64,000 bases of DNA from Candidatus Pelagibacter communis (lineage in GTDB: Bacteria; Pseudomonadota; Alphaproteobacteria; Pelagibacterales; Pelagibacteraceae): positions 1 to 64,000 of the forward strand of contig NZ_CVSB01000037.1 of NCBI RefSeq assembly GCF_001179845.1, in the 5' to 3' direction. Shown here piece after piece: positions 17,994-35,897 of this stretch. Numbering within the stretch: position 1 is the first letter of the stretch; the number at the start of each line of letters is the position of its first letter. The notes below the pieces were generated by a model. It worked only from the letters and a program-made list of their open reading frames with translations, was not told the DNA's origin and did not search any database. The position numbers were made by a program, and so were the translations under genes.

Positions 17994-18908
17994 TTATGCG
18001 ATTGATCTAAGAGATACTTTGTCTATTAAAGTATTTGACAGTGTTTTTTCCTTAATTTCATGTAATGAAAAATTACTCTTATCTTCATAAACTTTTCTCA
18101 AAAGATCATTTGTTAATTTATGGCCTCCTTGTGAGCAAACTATTTTTCCCACAACTTTATAACCTGATAAAAATAAATCACCAATACAGTCTAAAATTTT
18201 ATGATTAACAAATTCTTTTTCATTTCTTAATCCACTATTGTTAAGAACCTCGTTATCTTTTACTACAATTGCATTATCTAAACTTCCTCCAAGCGCAAAA
18301 CCCATGCTTTGTAGTTTTTTGACATCTTCATATAAACAAAAAGTTCTAGACTCATAAATATCAGATAAATTGGAATTATAAACATCTACTAGATTTCTTT
18401 GAGTTCCAATTAAGCTGTTTTTATATTTAATCTCAAAATCAATTAATAAATTTGTTTTGCTTGGTTCGATCGAAATAAACTTGTTATCATTTTCAATAGA
18501 AATTTTTTTATTAATTGAAATTATCTTTATTGGAATATTACTTTCTTTTATTCCCGAACTTTTTATTTTTTCAATAAATATCTTTGATGAACCATCTAAG
18601 ATTGGTATTTCGCTGTTATCAATTTCTATAAGTGCATTATCAATACCAAGACCAAACAGTGCTGCCATTAAATGTTCTATAGTAGAAATTTTAACTCCAT
18701 GCTCATTAGATATTGTTGTGCATAAAGTAGCATTTGTTACATTAAATACACTTGGAATTACTATATTGTTATTTGTTATGTCTATTCTTTTAAATTGAAT
18801 TCCTGAATTTGGTAAACCAGGTAAAATTCGCATTTGCACATTTTTACCACTATGCAAACCAACACCATCGATAATTACTTCTCTATTTACAGTTTTTTGG
18901 TATAGCAT
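17994..18908 (-). CDS. lpxC: UDP-3-O-acyl-GlcNAc deacetylase
   Basis: It catalyses the committed zinc-dependent step of lipid A synthesis. I take the ATG at 18908 (MLYQKTVNREVIIDGVGLHSG, 304 residues); an upstream start would add an unlikely hydrophobic leader of 13 residues. Zinc ligands fit the His in TIEHLMAAL and the His and Asp in NHKILDCIGDLFLSG, and SQGGHKLTN carries the catalytic His. Its presence means this organism makes lipid A. It follows the ftsA-like gene by 65 bp. Confidence 0.95.
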   Translation of the reverse strand: MLYQKTVNREVIIDGVGLHSGKNVQMRILPGLPNSGIQFKRIDITNNNIVIPSVFNVTNATLCTTISNEHGVKISTIEHLMAALFGLGIDNALIEIDNSEIPILDGSSKIFIEKIKSSGIKESNIPIKIISINKKISIENDNKFISIEPSKTNLLIDFEIKYKNSLIGTQRNLVDVYNSNLSDIYESRTFCLYEDVKKLQSMGFALGGSLDNAIVVKDNEVLNNSGLRNEKEFVNHKILDCIGDLFLSGYKVVGKIVCSQGGHKLTNDLLRKVYEDKSNFSLHEIKEKTLSNTLIDKVSLRSIA

Positions 18909-18973
18909 GATAATAATGTACCAAAAATTGAGAGCCTTAAAAAACAAGTTATATTACAACAAGCTACAAATAC

Positions 18974-19672
18974 TTACCCAAATAAGTTGAAAAATTTTTC
19001 AAAAAAACCCAATTTTTTTGTATTTTTTTGGACAAACATGACCTCATTTTCATTAGAACCATTCAAAATATCAAAAGTCATTTTTGATATTTCTATGTCA
19101 TTTTTAAAAAAATTTTTAACATAATTTCCATCCACACACTTGGTGATATTTATTTGATAATTTTTTAATACTTTATTTAAATTCTGTATAATTTCATTTG
19201 AGATAGATTTAAATTGAACCTCTAAATTAAAATGCTCACACTCTAAATTATCTTGCAAATAAGAATATTTTTTACCATCAATCAAATAACTTTTTATTAT
19301 AATATGCATTATTTTTTCATCTGGATAATTTTCTTTGAATAGGTCTTTAGCGTTAGTTATAGAACTTTGTAAGAAAGTCTTAGTTTTTGAAGGTTCATAA
19401 TTTTTTTGTTTAATTCCTATTTGGATATTTAAGATACTTGCATAATCAATGATAATAAAAATATTCTCAACAAATTTTCCTAATAATTTTTCTATTCTAA
19501 ATACATTGTCATCAAGAAATTTTTTAAGATCAGAATAGTTTATAAAATTTGTTTTTTCAAAATTTATTTCTTTACCATACAAGTTGTTCCTACTTTTAGT
19601 ATCAAATAAATAAATTCCAAATTTAGTTTGGGAAATACTTAAATAGGTTTCAAACTCAAAAATTTCATTCAT
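18974..19672 (-). CDS. ftsA: Truncated FtsA-like cell division protein
   Basis: A 232-residue protein in the ftsA slot between ftsQ and lpxC; normal FtsA is about 400-430 residues. Residues around 120-190 (IMHIIIKSYLIDGKKY, then a strand-rich block and NLNKVLKNYQINITKCV) align by eye with the 1C domain of FtsA, where other species have IHxLPxxYxxDG and a following xCVExAGL. The N-terminal 50 residues look like the first strands of subdomain 1A. Domains 2A and 2B, which complete the ATP site and bind the FtsZ tail, are absent. The end (LGFFEKFFNLFG) is an amphipathic helix like the FtsA membrane anchor. It overlaps ftsQ by 8 bp. Only 65 bp separate it from lpxC, so no room is left for a frameshifted remainder. 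The call rests on position and partial similarity. Confidence 0.65.
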   Translation of the reverse strand: MNEIFEFETYLSISQTKFGIYLFDTKSRNNLYGKEINFEKTNFINYSDLKKFLDDNVFRIEKLLGKFVENIFIIIDYASILNIQIGIKQKNYEPSKTKTFLQSSITNAKDLFKENYPDEKIMHIIIKSYLIDGKKYSYLQDNLECEHFNLEVQFKSISNEIIQNLNKVLKNYQINITKCVDGNYVKNFFKNDIEISKMTFDILNGSNENEVMFVQKNTKKLGFFEKFFNLFG

Positions 19673-20336
19673 TCAATATAATTTGATTATCTATTCTAAT
19701 ATCAATTATGGTAAATTTTCCAATATTATTATCTTCTAAAAATTCATAAGCATAATCTAAAGAAGCTATGGTTGAATGATGAGGTAATTTTAATAAAATA
19801 TTATTTTTTAGTTTAATGTCCCATCTTTTAGATGGAAAAAAAAACAAACTCTCGATTTCCTCAAATGAAAATTTAGATTTATCTACAATTTTTTTAAAAA
19901 TTAAAAATTCTTGAATCTGTGGTTTGCCAAAAATATAAGGTAAATCAGTTGCTTGCAAATTATTAGGTATTAATTTTCCATTTGAACCAATTACAAATGT
20001 TTCATTATTGAAATTTATTTTAGCTATAAAACTTGTTTTTTTAATCATAATCTTTATAGCAGATGGGTAACTTTTAAAAATTTGATATTTTTCAATCAGT
20101 GGATTTGAATTCATTAAATCATTGATTTCTTTTTTATTAATAAAAAAGATATTATTTAAGTTAAGATTTTTTATTTTTTCAATTATAAGACTATTTTCTA
20201 TTTCGCTTAATCCTGAAACTTCAATATTTTTAACTTTTTGAAATTCTAAATTGTTTAATGAAATATTATTAGTTGAACTTATTAATATTAATAAAAAAAA
20301 ATAAATTAATAACTTTTTACTTTTTCTTTGATGCAT
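19665..20336 (-). CDS. ftsQ: Cell division protein FtsQ
   Basis: A 223-residue single-pass membrane protein of the divisome. The membrane helix is at about residues 8-24, followed by a POTRA domain (VKNIEVSGLSEIENSLIIEKI) and a beta domain (FVIGSNGKLI, LPYIFGKPQ). The C-terminal DIRIDNQIIL matches the region that binds FtsL/FtsB in relatives. It overlaps ddl by 20 bp and the ftsA-like gene by 8 bp. Confidence 0.88.
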   Translation of the reverse strand: MHQRKSKKLLIYFFLLILISSTNNISLNNLEFQKVKNIEVSGLSEIENSLIIEKIKNLNLNNIFFINKKEINDLMNSNPLIEKYQIFKSYPSAIKIMIKKTSFIAKINFNNETFVIGSNGKLIPNNLQATDLPYIFGKPQIQEFLIFKKIVDKSKFSFEEIESLFFFPSKRWDIKLKNNILLKLPHHSTIASLDYAYEFLEDNNIGKFTIIDIRIDNQIILNE

Positions 20337-28081: not shown

Positions 28082-30925
28082 TTAATGCAACCCTTTCAGA
28101 TCTTTTACTATTTCGTTGAATCCTGTCGCAAGTGAGGCCTTTATCATTAAATAATCATTATTATTTAAATCTTTTCTAATCAATTCAATAATTTGAGATT
28201 TGTTTGATAAAATCCTGCCCTTTTTGGCTTTTGAGATACCTGCAAATATTATAGATGCCATTTTTCCTTTGGCAAATACCTTGTCTATCTTGGTCTGATT
28301 TATTATTGGAGAAATAGATTTATGAAGTTTTTTAGAATGACTACCCAGCTCTAACATGTCACCAATTAGTAAATATTTATTTGATTTTTTTGAGTTTACT
28401 TTATCAAAATTTTTTATTGCTGATTTTAATGATAGAGGATTTGAATTATAACTTTGATCAATTAAATTAATTTTTTTATTATCAATTTTTATTACTGAAT
28501 GATCCCCTCTTCCTGCAGGAATTTTGAAATTGAGAAAAATATTTTTATTTAATTTAATTATATTTTTATAAATACTAATAACTGCTAAAGCAGCAAGTGT
28601 ATTGTATATGTTATTTTGAAAATTGTTTGATAAAGTAAAATATTTTTTTTTATTATTTAATCGAATATTAATTCTAAAATTTTTTCCAAAAGGCTGTATA
28701 TTAATTAATTTAATTTCTGATTTCTGACTTTTAATACCAAAAGAAACTACTTTAATTTTATTTTCAATGGCAATTTTTTTATGTAATTGAAAAAAGCTGT
28801 CATCTGCATTTAATACAATATAACCATTGGGTTTTATATTTTTTATAATTTCAGATTTTGCCAAAGCAATTTGTTTAATATTTTTAAAATTTTTAGCATG
28901 TGCATAATTTATGTTTGTTATCACACCAACATCTGGTTTTATAATTTTAGATAAATAGTCAATTTCTCCTTTTTTATCCATTCCAATTTCTAAAATTCCA
29001 AATTCATCATTTTGTTTTAAATTAAAAAGACTTAGAGGAACCCCAAATTTATTGTTATATGATTTTGGAGAAATACTTACTTTTGAAATTTTACTTAATA
29101 CATTACCCAACAATTCTTTAAGTGTGGTTTTACCACAGCTGCCTGTGATAGCTATAATATTTGTATCAATACTTTTTCTAAAATTTTTTGAAATACCAGT
29201 TAAGAAATTCAGAGTATTTTTTACTTTAATTTGTCGATTTAGATTAAATTTTTTTTGAATTTTATTCACTATAGCTAATGATGCTTTTTTTTTAAATGAT
29301 TGTGAAACAAATTTATTACCGTCATTTTTTTTTCCCTTAATAGCAAAAAAAATATCATTTTTAGTAACTTCTTTAGAATTAATTCTTGCTGTTTTTAAAG
29401 ATATGGAAGCAGACAATTTTTCAATTTTGGCTGCCTCTTTAACCACATTTAATTTTAAATTATCTGATAAATAATTATTTTTATGCTTAATAGCATTTAG
29501 AATTACCTTTCTATCTGAAAAGAAAATTTTCTTAATTCCAATATCTTGCGTTTTCTCATGACCTTTTCCAGCAATTAACAAGATATCCCCTGAGTTCAAA
29601 TTATGAATGGCTTGAGTAATTGCTATTTCTCTATTGGATATTTCAATAATTTTCTTTTTTTTAATTCCTTTTTTTATATCTCTTCTTATTTTTTGAGGAT
29701 TTTCAAATCTAGGATTATCATTTGTAAGAATGATACTATCTGCAAAATCACTAGCTATTTTACCCATTTTTGATCTTTTGTTTTGATCTCTATTTCCCCC
29801 ACAACCAAATAGAACTGTGATTTTTTTATTAGGAAATTGTTCTCTAAGACTTAAAAGACACGTTTTTAAAGCATCAGGCGTATGAGCATAATCAAGAATT
29901 ACTTTAGATTGATTTTTAATTTTACCAATTTTTTCAAACCTTCCCTCAACTGGTTTTAATTTTGGAATTGTATTTAAAACTTTATCTAAACTAATACCGC
30001 TATATTTTGCAGCAATTATTGCCATCAAAACATTTTTTAATTGTATTTTTCCAATTAAATTTAAATTTATATCCCTAATTAAGCTATTAAATCTAATTCT
30101 AAGAAATTGACCCTCTCCTTTAAAATTATGAGATAAGAGCTCTAGGTTATTTTTTTCATCATTAAGTGTATGTAATTTTAATTTGTTATTAATTGCAATT
30201 TTTTTTATGTTTTTGAACTCAGGTATTAATTGATCTGTAATTACAATTCCTCTTTTTAAGATTAGTTTTTCAAATAAATAAAGTTTTGCATTTAAATAGT
30301 TTTTTAAATTTTTATGATAATCAAGATGATCCTGCGATAGATTAGTAAAAATACCTGAATTAAACTTCAAACCATCTAATCTATTTTGCTTTAAACCATG
30401 GCTTGAGGCTTCCATAATTACATTTTCTATTTTTTGATTTTTTAACTTGCTTAATATTTTAGCCAATTTGATTGGATCTATTGTGGTATTAGATAAATTC
30501 AAATTAATACTTTTTGATTTAACACCTAATGTGCCAATTGAAGCAACTTTTTTATTATTTAATTTTAATATTTGATAATAAAAATCTGCAACTGATGATT
30601 TTCCGTTTGTACCAGTAACTGCAATTAAATTTTTTGGTTTTTTATTATAAATTTTAAAAGCAGTTTCAGCTAATAATTTTCTTACATTATTTGTATAAAT
30701 ATATAAAATTCCATTTTGAAATGGATTTGCTTTCTTTTCAGTTACAATAATTTTAGATCCTTTTTTAATTGCTTTAGGTATAAATTTGTTACCATCAATA
30801 CTATTTCCTTTAATCGCAAAAAAAATATTATCTTTTTTGATATTATTCGTATCAAACGAAATTCCTGAAAAAGAAAAATTTTTATAATTTTTATCTATGT
30901 TATTAAAGTAGTTTCCTAGAAGCAT
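28082..30925 (-). CDS. murE/murF: MurE-MurF fusion: two Mur ligases in one protein
   Basis: A 947-residue single open frame carrying two complete Mur ligases. Residues 1-475 are MurE, with ATP loop TGTNGKSS at 104-111, SQDHLDYH, and DNPR near residue 405, the mark of meso-diaminopimelate addition. From about residue 485 MurF begins, with its own GSCGKTTLKE loop near residue 593, GMDKKGEIDYLS, NINYAHAKNF and DQSYNSNPLSLKSA. Both N-terminal domains carry similar DIFFAIKG blocks, reflecting common ancestry. The protein would carry out the two successive additions of DAP and D-Ala-D-Ala. No stop or start separates the parts, and no linker longer than about 20 residues is obvious. MurE-MurF fusions are known in Bordetella. 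Confidence 0.95.
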   Translation of the reverse strand: MLLGNYFNNIDKNYKNFSFSGISFDTNNIKKDNIFFAIKGNSIDGNKFIPKAIKKGSKIIVTEKKANPFQNGILYIYTNNVRKLLAETAFKIYNKKPKNLIAVTGTNGKSSVADFYYQILKLNNKKVASIGTLGVKSKSINLNLSNTTIDPIKLAKILSKLKNQKIENVIMEASSHGLKQNRLDGLKFNSGIFTNLSQDHLDYHKNLKNYLNAKLYLFEKLILKRGIVITDQLIPEFKNIKKIAINNKLKLHTLNDEKNNLELLSHNFKGEGQFLRIRFNSLIRDINLNLIGKIQLKNVLMAIIAAKYSGISLDKVLNTIPKLKPVEGRFEKIGKIKNQSKVILDYAHTPDALKTCLLSLREQFPNKKITVLFGCGGNRDQNKRSKMGKIASDFADSIILTNDNPRFENPQKIRRDIKKGIKKKKIIEISNREIAITQAIHNLNSGDILLIAGKGHEKTQDIGIKKIFFSDRKVILNAIKHKNNYLSDNLKLNVVKEAAKIEKLSASISLKTARINSKEVTKNDIFFAIKGKKNDGNKFVSQSFKKKASLAIVNKIQKKFNLNRQIKVKNTLNFLTGISKNFRKSIDTNIIAITGSCGKTTLKELLGNVLSKISKVSISPKSYNNKFGVPLSLFNLKQNDEFGILEIGMDKKGEIDYLSKIIKPDVGVITNINYAHAKNFKNIKQIALAKSEIIKNIKPNGYIVLNADDSFFQLHKKIAIENKIKVVSFGIKSQKSEIKLINIQPFGKNFRINIRLNNKKKYFTLSNNFQNNIYNTLAALAVISIYKNIIKLNKNIFLNFKIPAGRGDHSVIKIDNKKINLIDQSYNSNPLSLKSAIKNFDKVNSKKSNKYLLIGDMLELGSHSKKLHKSISPIINQTKIDKVFAKGKMASIIFAGISKAKKGRILSNKSQIIELIRKDLNNNDYLMIKASLATGFNEIVKDLKGLH

Positions 30926-30927
30926 AA

Positions 30928-32616
30928 TTAATTAACCTCTATATATTTTGTGGCTAAAATAGGCCCAATTTTATCTATAACTTTTCCAGCTACCTCTACT
31001 GAGGTCCAGCCAGCAGTATTATAAAGTGTACCCTTCCACCCTCCTTTTCGATGTCTATATTTATAATAATAATCTTTAGATTTTTTTGGAGTATCTAGCA
31101 TTACAACAAAAACAAATTGTGGATTTGATGTAGGAAAAATCGAGGCAAAAGTATTTATTTTTGCCTCAGAATATGCTCCTCCCTCAGGTTGATCAGCAGT
31201 TCCTGTTTTTCCACCAATTTCATAATTTTGAACATCTGCAAATTTAGCTGTCCCTTCCTCAGTATTTACAATTTTTCTTAAAGCGCTAACAACTTGTTCT
31301 GAAATACCTCTGTTTAATATTCTTTTATTTTTTTTATTAAAATTATTTTCTTTATAAATTAATGTTGGCTTAATTTCATATCCACCATTTGATAAAACAG
31401 AATAACCTTTTGCTAATTGAAGAATTGTAGTTGCTATTCCATGTCCAAAAGAAGCTGTAGCCAATCTGCATTTTCCAAAATCATAATTTTTTTGTGGAGC
31501 AACTTCTTCTAAATCAAAAACTATATCACTTAACACGCCAACTTTTTCTAAAAATAATTTAAATTTTTCTGGGCCAATTTTTTGTGCAATTTTGACAGAT
31601 CCTATATTTCCAGATCTAACTAAAATTTGCTCTGCAGTTAAATTGGATGGTATTTCATTGTCGTACTCTCCTATTCTGTATTTGTCACATTTAATTGATT
31701 TGGGTAAATCTAAAAATTCAGTCTCAGGTTTAATTAGCTTTTCATTTAAGGCGCCAGCAAAAGTAAATGCTTTAAATACAGAGCCGAGTTCATATGTTCC
31801 TTTAGTTACCCTGTTAATATATTTTACATCTGTAATATTTTGTCTTTCATTTGGATTAAAATCTGGCAAAGAAACTAATGATAAAATATTGCCATTATTA
31901 ACATCCATTAAAATAGCTGCACTACCTTTGCTTTTAAAAATTTCCTGATATTTAATTAATTCTTTTCTTACTAAAAACTGAACATCCTTATCTAGAGTAA
32001 GTTTAATGGGTTTTTTTGATTGTCTAAGTTCCTCATTCAATGATTTTTCCAATCCAGAAATACCGTTATTGTCATCATCTATCTGACCCAAAACATGACT
32101 AAAAAGATTTTTTTGTGGATACATTCTTAAAACTCTTTCTTCTGGGACTAAAGATTTATCCCCTAGTTTCATAATTTTTTCATAATTTTCCTCTGAAATT
32201 TTCTTCTCTAAATAAAAAAATTTCTTAGTTTTTATTTTTTTTTTAATTTGATCAAAATTTTTATCAGGAAAAATAATATTTAAACTTAGAAGTAATTTTT
32301 TTTCATTGATTATATCTGAGGTTCTTAAACCAATATCAATCGATTTAACTGTCTTTGCTAAATAATTTCCATTAACATCCATGATGTCTGCACGATAAAG
32401 ATGATTTTTAAATGTAGGAATATTATTTGTTTTTTCAAATTTACTCTTTCTTGAACCTAAATGAACTAGGTGTATTGAATAAATCAAATAGATAATAAAA
32501 AAAACAAAGAAAATAAAAGCTACACGATTAAATCGAATATTTAATCCACTTTCTTTTTTCTTAAATATAAAATCACTTTTGTAGTCTTCTATGGTTAATT
32601 TTGATTTATCTGCCAT
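30928..32616 (-). CDS. ftsI: Septal transpeptidase FtsI (PBP3)
   Basis: A 562-residue class B penicillin-binding protein. The membrane helix is at about residues 31-49, followed by a dimerisation module, then the transpeptidase domain with the serine in ELGSVFKAFT (SxxK), SGN in VRSGNIGSVK, and KTG in IGGKTGTADQ. It cross-links septal peptidoglycan with FtsW. It shares a base with ftsL upstream and lies 2 bp before murEF. Confidence 0.95.
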   Translation of the reverse strand: MADKSKLTIEDYKSDFIFKKKESGLNIRFNRVAFIFFVFFIIYLIYSIHLVHLGSRKSKFEKTNNIPTFKNHLYRADIMDVNGNYLAKTVKSIDIGLRTSDIINEKKLLLSLNIIFPDKNFDQIKKKIKTKKFFYLEKKISEENYEKIMKLGDKSLVPEERVLRMYPQKNLFSHVLGQIDDDNNGISGLEKSLNEELRQSKKPIKLTLDKDVQFLVRKELIKYQEIFKSKGSAAILMDVNNGNILSLVSLPDFNPNERQNITDVKYINRVTKGTYELGSVFKAFTFAGALNEKLIKPETEFLDLPKSIKCDKYRIGEYDNEIPSNLTAEQILVRSGNIGSVKIAQKIGPEKFKLFLEKVGVLSDIVFDLEEVAPQKNYDFGKCRLATASFGHGIATTILQLAKGYSVLSNGGYEIKPTLIYKENNFNKKNKRILNRGISEQVVSALRKIVNTEEGTAKFADVQNYEIGGKTGTADQPEGGAYSEAKINTFASIFPTSNPQFVFVVMLDTPKKSKDYYYKYRHRKGGWKGTLYNTAGWTSVEVAGKVIDKIGPILATKYIEVN

Positions 32617-32921
32617 TACTCTTTAATAATTTTAAAACTTTGGATTTTATTTTTATCATCTGAAATATTGTATATTTTTATGTCGTTTATATTCTTTTGA
32701 ATTAAATCATTCTCAAAATACTGAGATTGATATTCAAGTAATCTTTCTGCAGAACTTAAATAATTATACTCCAAGAATACATTTTCAAATTCAGATTTTA
32801 AAACTCTAATATTCTCTCTTGCCGTAAATATTTCATCTTCAATCTGTTTGGTGGTATTTTTTATTATTGCAGTTGATAGAACTAAAAAAAAAATCACTAC
32901 TGCTAAAGCAAACTTTTTCAC
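32616..32921 (-). CDS. ftsL: Cell division protein FtsL
   Basis: A 101-residue bitopic protein with a membrane helix at residues 4-22 and a periplasmic coiled-coil-like stretch ([19 protein letters not shown]). Sequence conservation of FtsL is low; the call rests on size, topology and position between rsmH and ftsI. In the divisome it joins FtsQ and FtsB to activate FtsWI. It overlaps rsmH by 4 bp. Confidence 0.85.
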
Positions 32922-33946: not shown

Positions 33947-35428
33947 TTAATTTTTTTGTCTTCTTAAGAAAGCTGGTATCTCAAGATCATCTTCTTCCTC
34001 TTCATCTGAAGTCAATAAATCTTCAGGGCTTGAATTATCAGATTCTGAACTAAATAAATCTGGTGCATCTGAGTCAACTCCAAATTCTTTTAAATCATTC
34101 GAGGTTTCTTCTTTGTTGTTAATATCTTGATGATCCTCATTGGTAGTTTCCATAGCTTCTTGAGCAAAAGATTTCTCCATTTCATTAACTGAACTATCCA
34201 GAACTATACTCTCGCTTTCCATGTTAGTTTTTTGGGCAACTTCTTCACTCATCATCTGATTATGAGAACTCTCAGTTTGTTGTTCTTGGATAATCTCATT
34301 TTCAAGCTTTAAAGCATTAGCTCCGTGTGTAATTGGATTTGACGTATTAGTATTTGAAAAATTAAAAGATTGAGAGGATCCTAAATTTGAAAAATCGGAG
34401 TAACCAGGGTTACGGTTTTGAATTCGATGAACCATGTTTACAACAGATTTTGACTCTGGTTGCTGACCATCTAATGAAGTTGCAACAATTGAAACTCTCA
34501 TTTTTCCATCAAGTTCTGTGTCAGTAATTGCACCAATAATTAATTCTGCTTCAGGATCAACTTCAGCTCTAACTTTATTTACAGCCTCATCAACTTCAAA
34601 AAGTTTAAGATCTTTACCACCAGTAATATTTACTAATAAACCTTTTGCACCCTTTAATGTATAGTCATCTATTAATGGGTTGCTGATTGCCATCTCTGCT
34701 GCTTTAAGAGCTCTACCTTCTCCTTCAGCTTCACCTGTTCCCATCATAGCCTTACCCATCGCTGCCATTACAGTTTCAACGTCAGCAAAATCTAGGTTAA
34801 TTAAACCAGGTCTAACCATCAAATCGGTTATACTTTGAACACCATGCATCAAAACATTATTTGAAAGGTTAAAGGATTCTTCAAAAGTAGTCTGTTCGTT
34901 AGCTATTTTAAATAGGTTTTGGTTAGGTATAACAATTATTGTATCAACATGTTTTCTTAATTCTTCCAAACCTTGTTGTGCTCTTCTCATTCTAGAGGGG
35001 CCTTCATATAAAAATGGAAGAGTCACAACACCTACAGTTAAGATATTTAATTCTTTAGCAGCTCTTGCGATGACATGAGCAGCACCAGTGCCTGTTCCAC
35101 CACCCATACCAGCTGCAATAAAAACCATGTTTGCACCTTGAAGTGTATTTACAATTTCATTTAAAGATTCGTCAGCTGCAGCTTGTCCTATGTCAAGTTT
35201 TGCACCTGCTCCCAAACCTTTTGTTAAATTTAAACCAATTTGAATTCTTGTTTTTGCTTTACTAAGCTTCAAATCTTGAGCATCAGTATTTACTGCAATA
35301 AATTCTACTCCTTGTAGATTGTTTTCTATCATTTCGTTAATTGCATTTCCTCCAGCTCCACCAACTCCTAAAACTAGTAGTCGTGGCTGTAGCTCTTTTA
35401 TCTCTGGTGCTTTAAAGTTAATTGTCAT
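33947..35428 (-). CDS. ftsZ: Cell division GTPase FtsZ
   Basis: A 493-residue tubulin-like GTPase that forms the Z ring. The tubulin signature [11 protein letters not shown], the N-terminal [16 protein letters not shown], the [13 protein letters not shown] region and the synergy-loop region with [11 protein letters not shown] are all present. An acidic, Glu/Ser/Asn-rich linker covers about residues 330-478, and the conserved C-terminal peptide ([10 protein letters not shown]), the docking site for FtsA and other tethers, is intact. It lies between mraZ (10 bp) and rsmH, not after ftsA as in most bacteria. Confidence 0.97.
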
Positions 35429-35438
35429 CTTTTATCCC

Positions 35439-35897
35439 CTATTGTTTGTTATGTTGAAGCTCCCATTTAAGATTACTACGATTAATATTTGCTTTTTTTC
35501 TCGCTGTTATCTTAAATTTTTCAAATGCTGTTGGTTCCCATATTTGAAATGTTTGGCCTTGACCAACAAACAACATGCTATTTTTTATTTTTGCATGTTT
35601 TAATAATTTTGATGAAAGTAAAATTCTGCCCTCGCTGTCGAATTGTAAATTTATACTTTCTGCTAATATTGATGTTGCAAAGTAGTCTCTTTTTTCCTCA
35701 AAAGGATTTAAAGAGTCAATTGCTGAAGAAATTTTTTCAATTCTATCTTGAGAACATGCTTCTATTGAAGAGTTATTAAATGATGGATAACAAATAACAC
35801 CATTGTAACCTAAGTTGGATAAATGTGACCTAAAACTAGCAGGCACAGATACTCTCCCTTTTTTGTCTAATTTGTTTTCGTATGTTGATAAAAACAT
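35439..35897 (-). CDS. mraZ: Transcriptional regulator MraZ
   Basis: A 152-residue protein with two SpoVT-AbrB-like DNA-binding repeats. The N-terminus FLSTYENKLDKKGRVSVPASFR and the second-half FDSEGRILLSSKLLKHA are the paired motifs of the family. In E. coli MraZ binds repeats ahead of its own gene and controls the dcw operon; repeats of that type are present just upstream here. It is the first gene of the cluster. Confidence 0.95.
   Translation of the reverse strand: MFLSTYENKLDKKGRVSVPASFRSHLSNLGYNGVICYPSFNNSSIEACSQDRIEKISSAIDSLNPFEEKRDYFATSILAESINLQFDSEGRILLSSKLLKHAKIKNSMLFVGQGQTFQIWEPTAFEKFKITARKKANINRSNLKWELQHNKQ

Follow-up and report, generated by a model that had tools for sequence, protein, structure and literature searches.

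A half-size FtsA without domain 2 in the division cluster of many SAR11 bacteria

A short gene in the ftsA slot

The stretch of DNA analysed here (the window, 64,000 nucleotides) carries a division cluster on its reverse strand, in which the ftsA slot, defined by ftsQ on one side and lpxC on the other, is occupied by a gene for a protein of 232 aa. The genes needed to follow the argument are these:

17994..18947, (-) strand: lpxC, slot-defining neighbour (Pfam LpxC, 9e-93)
18974..19672, (-) strand: half-size ftsA, read as a domain-1-only FtsA of 232 aa (ORF, FtsA fold, profile match to the full-length FtsA of the genus, slot shared with relatives)
19665..20336, (-) strand: ftsQ, slot-defining neighbour (Pfam POTRA_1, 7e-9; FtsQ_DivIB_C, 1e-5)
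33947..35428, (-) strand: ftsZ, complete and with its C-terminal peptide intact (Pfam and tail survey)

The half-size ftsA starts with ATG and overlaps the end of ftsQ. The next gene, lpxC, follows after 26 bp when its longest, TTG-started frame is taken, or after about 65 bp when counted from its likely ATG, in agreement with the 65 bp spacing given in the initial annotation. The complete ftsZ lies 14 kb from the half-size ftsA and adjoins mraZ: the cluster opens with mraZ-ftsZ-mraW (33947-35897 of the window, (-) strand), and ftsZ is found there rather than after ftsA. This gene order, from ftsZ to lpxC, is identical in all 38 other genomes of the genus that we compared. Two further ORFs of the window are worth recording: one of 947 aa (28082-30925, (-) strand) in which the Mur ligase middle and C-terminal domains each occur twice, apparently a MurE/MurF fusion, which is matched as a single unit throughout the genus as well as in the sister family, and one of 101 aa (32616-32921, (-) strand), which occupies the ftsL slot and has no Pfam match.

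The short protein is FtsA by descent

Taken alone, the 232-aa protein of the window had no match in a Pfam scan and was only weakly recognized by the TIGR01174 ftsA profile (E 0.0086; 15.2 bits, short of the cut-off of 175.85 bits). The family it belongs to gives a clearer signal: TIGR01174 matches 36 of 45 aligned short forms (best 1.9e-13), and SHS2_FTSA (PF02491, the IC domain) matches 19 of the 45, the window sequence being unmatched by the latter when searched by itself. Among the full-length forms of the genus, PF14450 (FtsA) is matched in 29/30, and FtsA structures are matched at E 1e-16. When the 45 short and 30 full forms were compared profile to profile with hhalign, they aligned across columns 1-189 with an E-value of 8e-38.

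The predicted fold leads to the same family. The initial annotation had proposed that the protein in the ftsA slot is a half-size FtsA, to be checked by a fold search; with the AlphaFold model (pLDDT 86.6) as a query, the best 19 Foldseek matches in the PDB are all FtsA (1E4G, E 2e-11; 7Q6I, TM 0.63), with nothing else ranking above them. The TM-scores are of moderate size (0.47-0.63), to which a shift of IC relative to IA in FtsA perhaps contributes, and the model of a full-length sister protein matches the entire FtsA. The entries that rank next are GspL, PilM, and EpsL. An identity as GspL or PilM does not agree with the slot, which lies in a division cluster and in no secretion or pilus operon, or with the better FtsA scores. 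A PHROGs search revealed no relationship, its single match having an E-value of 0.096.

Because slot, profile, and fold agree, we regard the half-size gene as orthologous to ftsA, and almost certainly as encoding an FtsA made of domain 1 only. By descent it is FtsA; by its defining features it is no longer the actin-like ATPase FtsA.

Domain 2 alone has been removed

Comparison of the short and full-length models and alignments divides the 232-aa protein as follows:

19445..19654, (-) strand: residues 7-76, N-terminal part of domain IA (beta strands and helix 46-64), phosphate-1 eroded (model and column frequencies)
19163..19432, (-) strand: residues 81-170, domain IC (SHS2), with the H...Y.ID signature kept (H123) (model; SHS2_FTSA in 19/45 short forms)
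19064..19150, (-) strand: residues 175-203, strand and helices going back to IA (short versus full-length model)
19091..19117, (-) strand: residues ~186-194, deletion junction, where full-length relatives have domain 2 (IIA and IIB, ~145 aa) (alignments)
19034..19060, (-) strand: residues 205-213, linker motif G-x-N-x-x-E-V (column frequencies)
18977..19009, (-) strand: C-terminal amphipathic helix GFFEKFFNLFG, putative membrane-targeting sequence (conservation and hydrophobic moment)

The model of the full-length sister protein places domain 2 inside a stretch from about residue 197 to 335 and returns to the IA helix at 338-349. The short model passes straight from helix 182-188 to helix 195-203, which corresponds to 338-349 of the full-length protein. 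Domain 2 (PF14450; IIA/IIB) is absent from both the short-form alignment and the model. What has been removed is domain 2 alone, and domain 1 (IA and IC), the linker, and the membrane helix are kept. The domain content first read from the DNA, a 1A-like start, a 1C core, and a terminal amphipathic helix, is borne out by the model and profiles; that reading named the domains correctly but overlooked the retained last IA helix (residues 195-203).

The retained parts have diverged to different degrees. The phosphate-1 motif D-x-G-S is well kept in full forms (D or E in 30/30, G in 29/30, S in 27/30), and column frequencies show that almost every short form has lost it, as would be expected once ATP binding is no longer selected. 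In the linker, E210 is present in 46/46 short forms versus 10/30 full forms; the G-x-N-x-x-E-V motif around it is near-invariant in short forms, is also found in the full-length forms that are sister to the window's clade, and is missing from most other full forms. The C-terminal helix (GFFEKFF.xF) is conserved in short and full forms alike, although its hydrophobic moment is by itself modest (shuffle fraction 0.027). A deep-branching member of the genus (G106, locus L092) encodes a 396-aa protein in the ftsA slot with unrecognizable ATP motifs, which could be a transitional form or else a full-length FtsA that has degenerated.

Set against known FtsA proteins (TIGR01174; PDB 1E4F/1E4G, 4A2A, 7Q6D-I), the short form shares the slot adjoining ftsQ, the IA and IC fold, the H...Y.ID signature of SHS2, and the C-terminal amphipathic helix. 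It is shorter (232 aa versus ~400) and lacks the phosphate-1 motif; because IIA and IIB are missing, so are the motifs for phosphate-2 and adenosine, the site for the FtsZ tail, and the interface for longitudinal filament contacts. The next-best folds, PilM and the cytoplasmic domain of GspL/EpsL (type II secretion), are actin-like, membrane-associated scaffolds that dock partners, and they set a precedent for reduced FtsA relatives that form no filaments; they belong, however, to other systems and operons, share 6-10% identity, and are not division proteins.

Distribution and history of the short form

Within the genus, complete homologs from the slot come in two sizes: 220-237 aa for the short form, of which there are 46 counting the window's own, and 369-399 aa for the full form, of which there are 30. 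Among contigs named Candidatus Pelagibacteraceae, a set found with lpxC as bait that overlaps the genus sample and whose counts are not to be added to it, 43 of 59 complete slots hold the short form and 16 the full one. The six full forms of the sister family measure 393-396 aa, and a different genus in the same family encodes an FtsA of 407 aa. Of 142 further alphaproteobacterial genomes searched, 130 yielded an FtsA, in frames of at least 398 aa except for two (204 and 340 aa), which may be cut by contig ends. The survey of the slot across SAR11 that the initial annotation called for thus finds the short form widespread, with full forms in sister species. Our search of the literature on FtsA in SAR11 or HIMB59 and on naturally truncated FtsA returned no prior report.

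The short state is scattered over a species tree of 13 genes (5357 columns; trees by FastTree and a quick method). The window's clade, d, has the full-length pair {G078, G073} as its sister, and clade a has the full-length G087; the short G100 and {G091, G050} stand apart. This tree rejects a single short clade (p-AU 9e-116), and three or more changes of state are required by its starred branches. The count of independent deletions that it suggests has to be tempered, because the domain-1 tree and tests on the flanking genes disagree: the domain-1 tree does not reject a single short clade (p-AU 0.48) and does reject placing clade a beside its species-tree sister G087 (p 0.002), while the adjacent ddl, ftsQ, and lpxC together do not reject a single short clade (p 0.32), and gene sets of the same size from more distant parts of the cluster do reject it (1e-9, 4e-4, and 4e-6). 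Either domain 2 was deleted repeatedly, or recombination carried a short allele along with the genes beside it.

A history in which the short form arose once, with exchange of a ddl-ftsQ-ftsA-lpxC block between lineages explaining the scatter, has in our view a little less than an even chance. It would account for the agreement between the domain-1 tree and the immediate neighbors, and for the loss of that signal in the more distant gene sets, but it must contend with the 13-gene tree. In addition, G100 keeps a near-intact phosphate-1 (DLSSTK), which suggests a younger, separate deletion, and the long branches that follow loss of the ATP site could attract short forms to one another. This alternative concerns the history of the gene only.

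Searches for a second FtsA and for known FtsZ tethers

Following the checks suggested in the initial annotation, we looked for a full FtsA elsewhere, for SepF, and for ZipA, and found none. In the window's genome (92% complete), the sole PF14450 match is a 344-aa mreB, and in the short-form genomes, including the closed G012 and G098, PF14450 matches at most one gene each, of MreB length; the same search does detect the full forms of sister species. SepF and ZipA are known to hold FtsZ at the membrane without or beside FtsA, and neither was detected in 61 genomes of the genus (SepF, PF04472, 0/61; ZipA_C, PF04354, 0/61; controls positive for both). FtsX_ECD was matched in 0/31 genomes, where the Caulobacter control was missed as well, making this weaker evidence of absence. 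A SPOR search for FtsN in the genus sample gave no clear candidate; the matches that were inspected are an RlpA-like lipoprotein and were rejected as FtsN. The only SPOR-domain gene found in the window's genome (L294, C29:115679-115861) is of this RlpA-like kind. With no SPOR protein of the FtsN kind seen in the genus sample, the late activation of division may likewise follow an unusual course in these bacteria.

FtsZ, for its part, has hardly changed. Its tail, EIPAFLRRQ, is almost the same in nearly every genome, short- or full-form, and with the complete ftsZ of the window this confirms that the C-terminal docking peptide noted at the outset is kept. The FtsZ-tail site of FtsA has been established in IIB for T. 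maritima (PDB 4A2A), and MinC and other proteins also bind the tail. Since the tail stays conserved, the suggestion that another protein tethers FtsZ is reasonable; where the initial annotation took such a tether to be implied, the short protein may instead have gained an FtsZ site of its own.

A putative ATP-independent membrane adaptor

The usual view gives ATP use by FtsA, its filaments, and its docking of FtsZ a central part in anchoring and activating the bacterial division ring. Published work on FtsA of the E. coli type places the FtsN tail in the IA-IC cleft and describes filament contacts that are longitudinal through IIA-IIB and lateral through IC (PMC7613929); FtsA binds the FtsZ tail (PMC5832921), and in one model monomeric FtsA with a freed 1C recruits the late division proteins (PMC5508204). 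Because domain 2 is absent and the phosphate-1 motif is lost, the short form lacks the standard ATP site and the FtsZ-docking subdomain, which supports the expectation that it should not bind ATP or FtsZ in the standard way.

We consider the best overall explanation (probability about 0.6) to be the in-frame loss of domain 2 from ftsA, leaving an ATP-independent membrane adaptor that forms no filaments. Removal of IIA and IIB would have left a complete domain 1, the linker, and the membrane-targeting helix, and the protein would be held on the inner membrane by that C-terminal helix. It would bind no ATP, could not make the longitudinal IIA-IIB filament contact, and would no longer hold the FtsZ tail in IIB. 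Such a protein would be a permanently monomer-like adaptor, its IA-IC cleft and IC surface docking the cytoplasmic tails of membrane division proteins, in the state that recruits late division proteins in the E. coli model, and the ATP-driven switch between polymer and monomer would be dispensed with. FtsZ would be tethered either by some other protein that binds its tail or by the short protein through a new site, for which the G-x-N-x-x-E-V linker motif is a candidate. For this mechanism the odds seem to us even; FtsN, the obvious partner for the cleft, appears to be missing or unrecognizable, which would count against cleft docking. The monomer-favoring mutants of E. coli FtsA of the R286W type, thought to be active once 1C is freed from filament contacts, offer an analogy, but they keep domain 2 and with it ATP and FtsZ binding, whereas the SAR11 short form has lost the whole domain.

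Rather than act solely as an adaptor, the short FtsA could itself still be the main membrane tether of FtsZ, working without ATP or filaments through a new tail site, for example in the G-x-N-x-x-E-V linker or in IC. The near-constancy of the FtsZ tail across short- and full-form genomes, the failure to find SepF, ZipA_C, or FtsX_ECD in the genomes searched, the retained membrane helix, and E210, invariant among short forms and common to their full-length sister group, all point this way. The known tail site, however, is in the missing IIB, and MinC and other tail binders could alone conserve the FtsZ tail, leaving us to regard this version as possible but rather unlikely.

Under the adaptor reading and its variants alike, FtsA in many SAR11 has lost the half concerned with ATP and the FtsZ ring and has kept the putative membrane anchor and partner-docking half, and holding or activation of the division ring must proceed by an undescribed route. 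The odds slightly favor a fuller picture in which many SAR11 have a nucleotide-free, non-filament FtsA and no SepF, ZipA, or recognizable FtsEX, with FtsZ held by an undescribed tether or by a new FtsZ-tail site on the half-size FtsA and activation proceeding without the FtsA ATP switch. The deletion is natural and widespread, affects ATP use, filaments, and FtsZ docking together, and occurs in very abundant ocean bacteria for which full-length relatives, one branch away, serve as a natural control. What domain 1 does (partner docking, membrane) is thereby set apart from what domain 2 does (ATP, FtsZ, polymer), making the question of what the ATPase of FtsA is for testable by comparison, and the deletion predicts an undescribed FtsZ tether or a new FtsZ site.

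The short gene is under purifying selection

The gene in the slot is a real one, as first annotated: it is an ATG-started ORF, its dN/dS is that of a gene under selection, and relatives carry it in the same slot. Eleven close pairs of short forms gave dN/dS values of 0.12-0.32, a range that overlaps that of three full-form pairs (0.14-0.20), and the half-size ftsA is under purifying selection. In the closed genome G012 (L052:690-1510), the half-size ftsA carries an apparent single frameshift at the T/A homopolymer TTTTTTTAAAAAAAA. The apparent stops had made this copy a candidate pseudogene, which we rejected on reading the DNA, where there is seemingly this one homopolymer frameshift. It is likely a sequencing error but may be slippage.

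That the half-size ftsA is a decaying remnant, its function already taken over by something else, is accordingly very improbable. Rapid drift (24-54% identity within the genus) and the G012 frameshift would fit decay, but the overlapping dN/dS ranges, 46 intact copies of nearly constant length, and the strict conservation of the tail helix and E210 speak against it, and in G012 the frame resumes after the run of T then A where the likely error lies. A split gene with domain 2 elsewhere, or a chimeric assembly, is scarcely credible even though most of the genomes are fragmented single-cell or metagenome assemblies, since PF14450 reveals no extra copy yet detects the full forms of sister species, and the short form recurs, with ftsQ and lpxC adjoining, in dozens of separately made assemblies as well as in two closed genomes.
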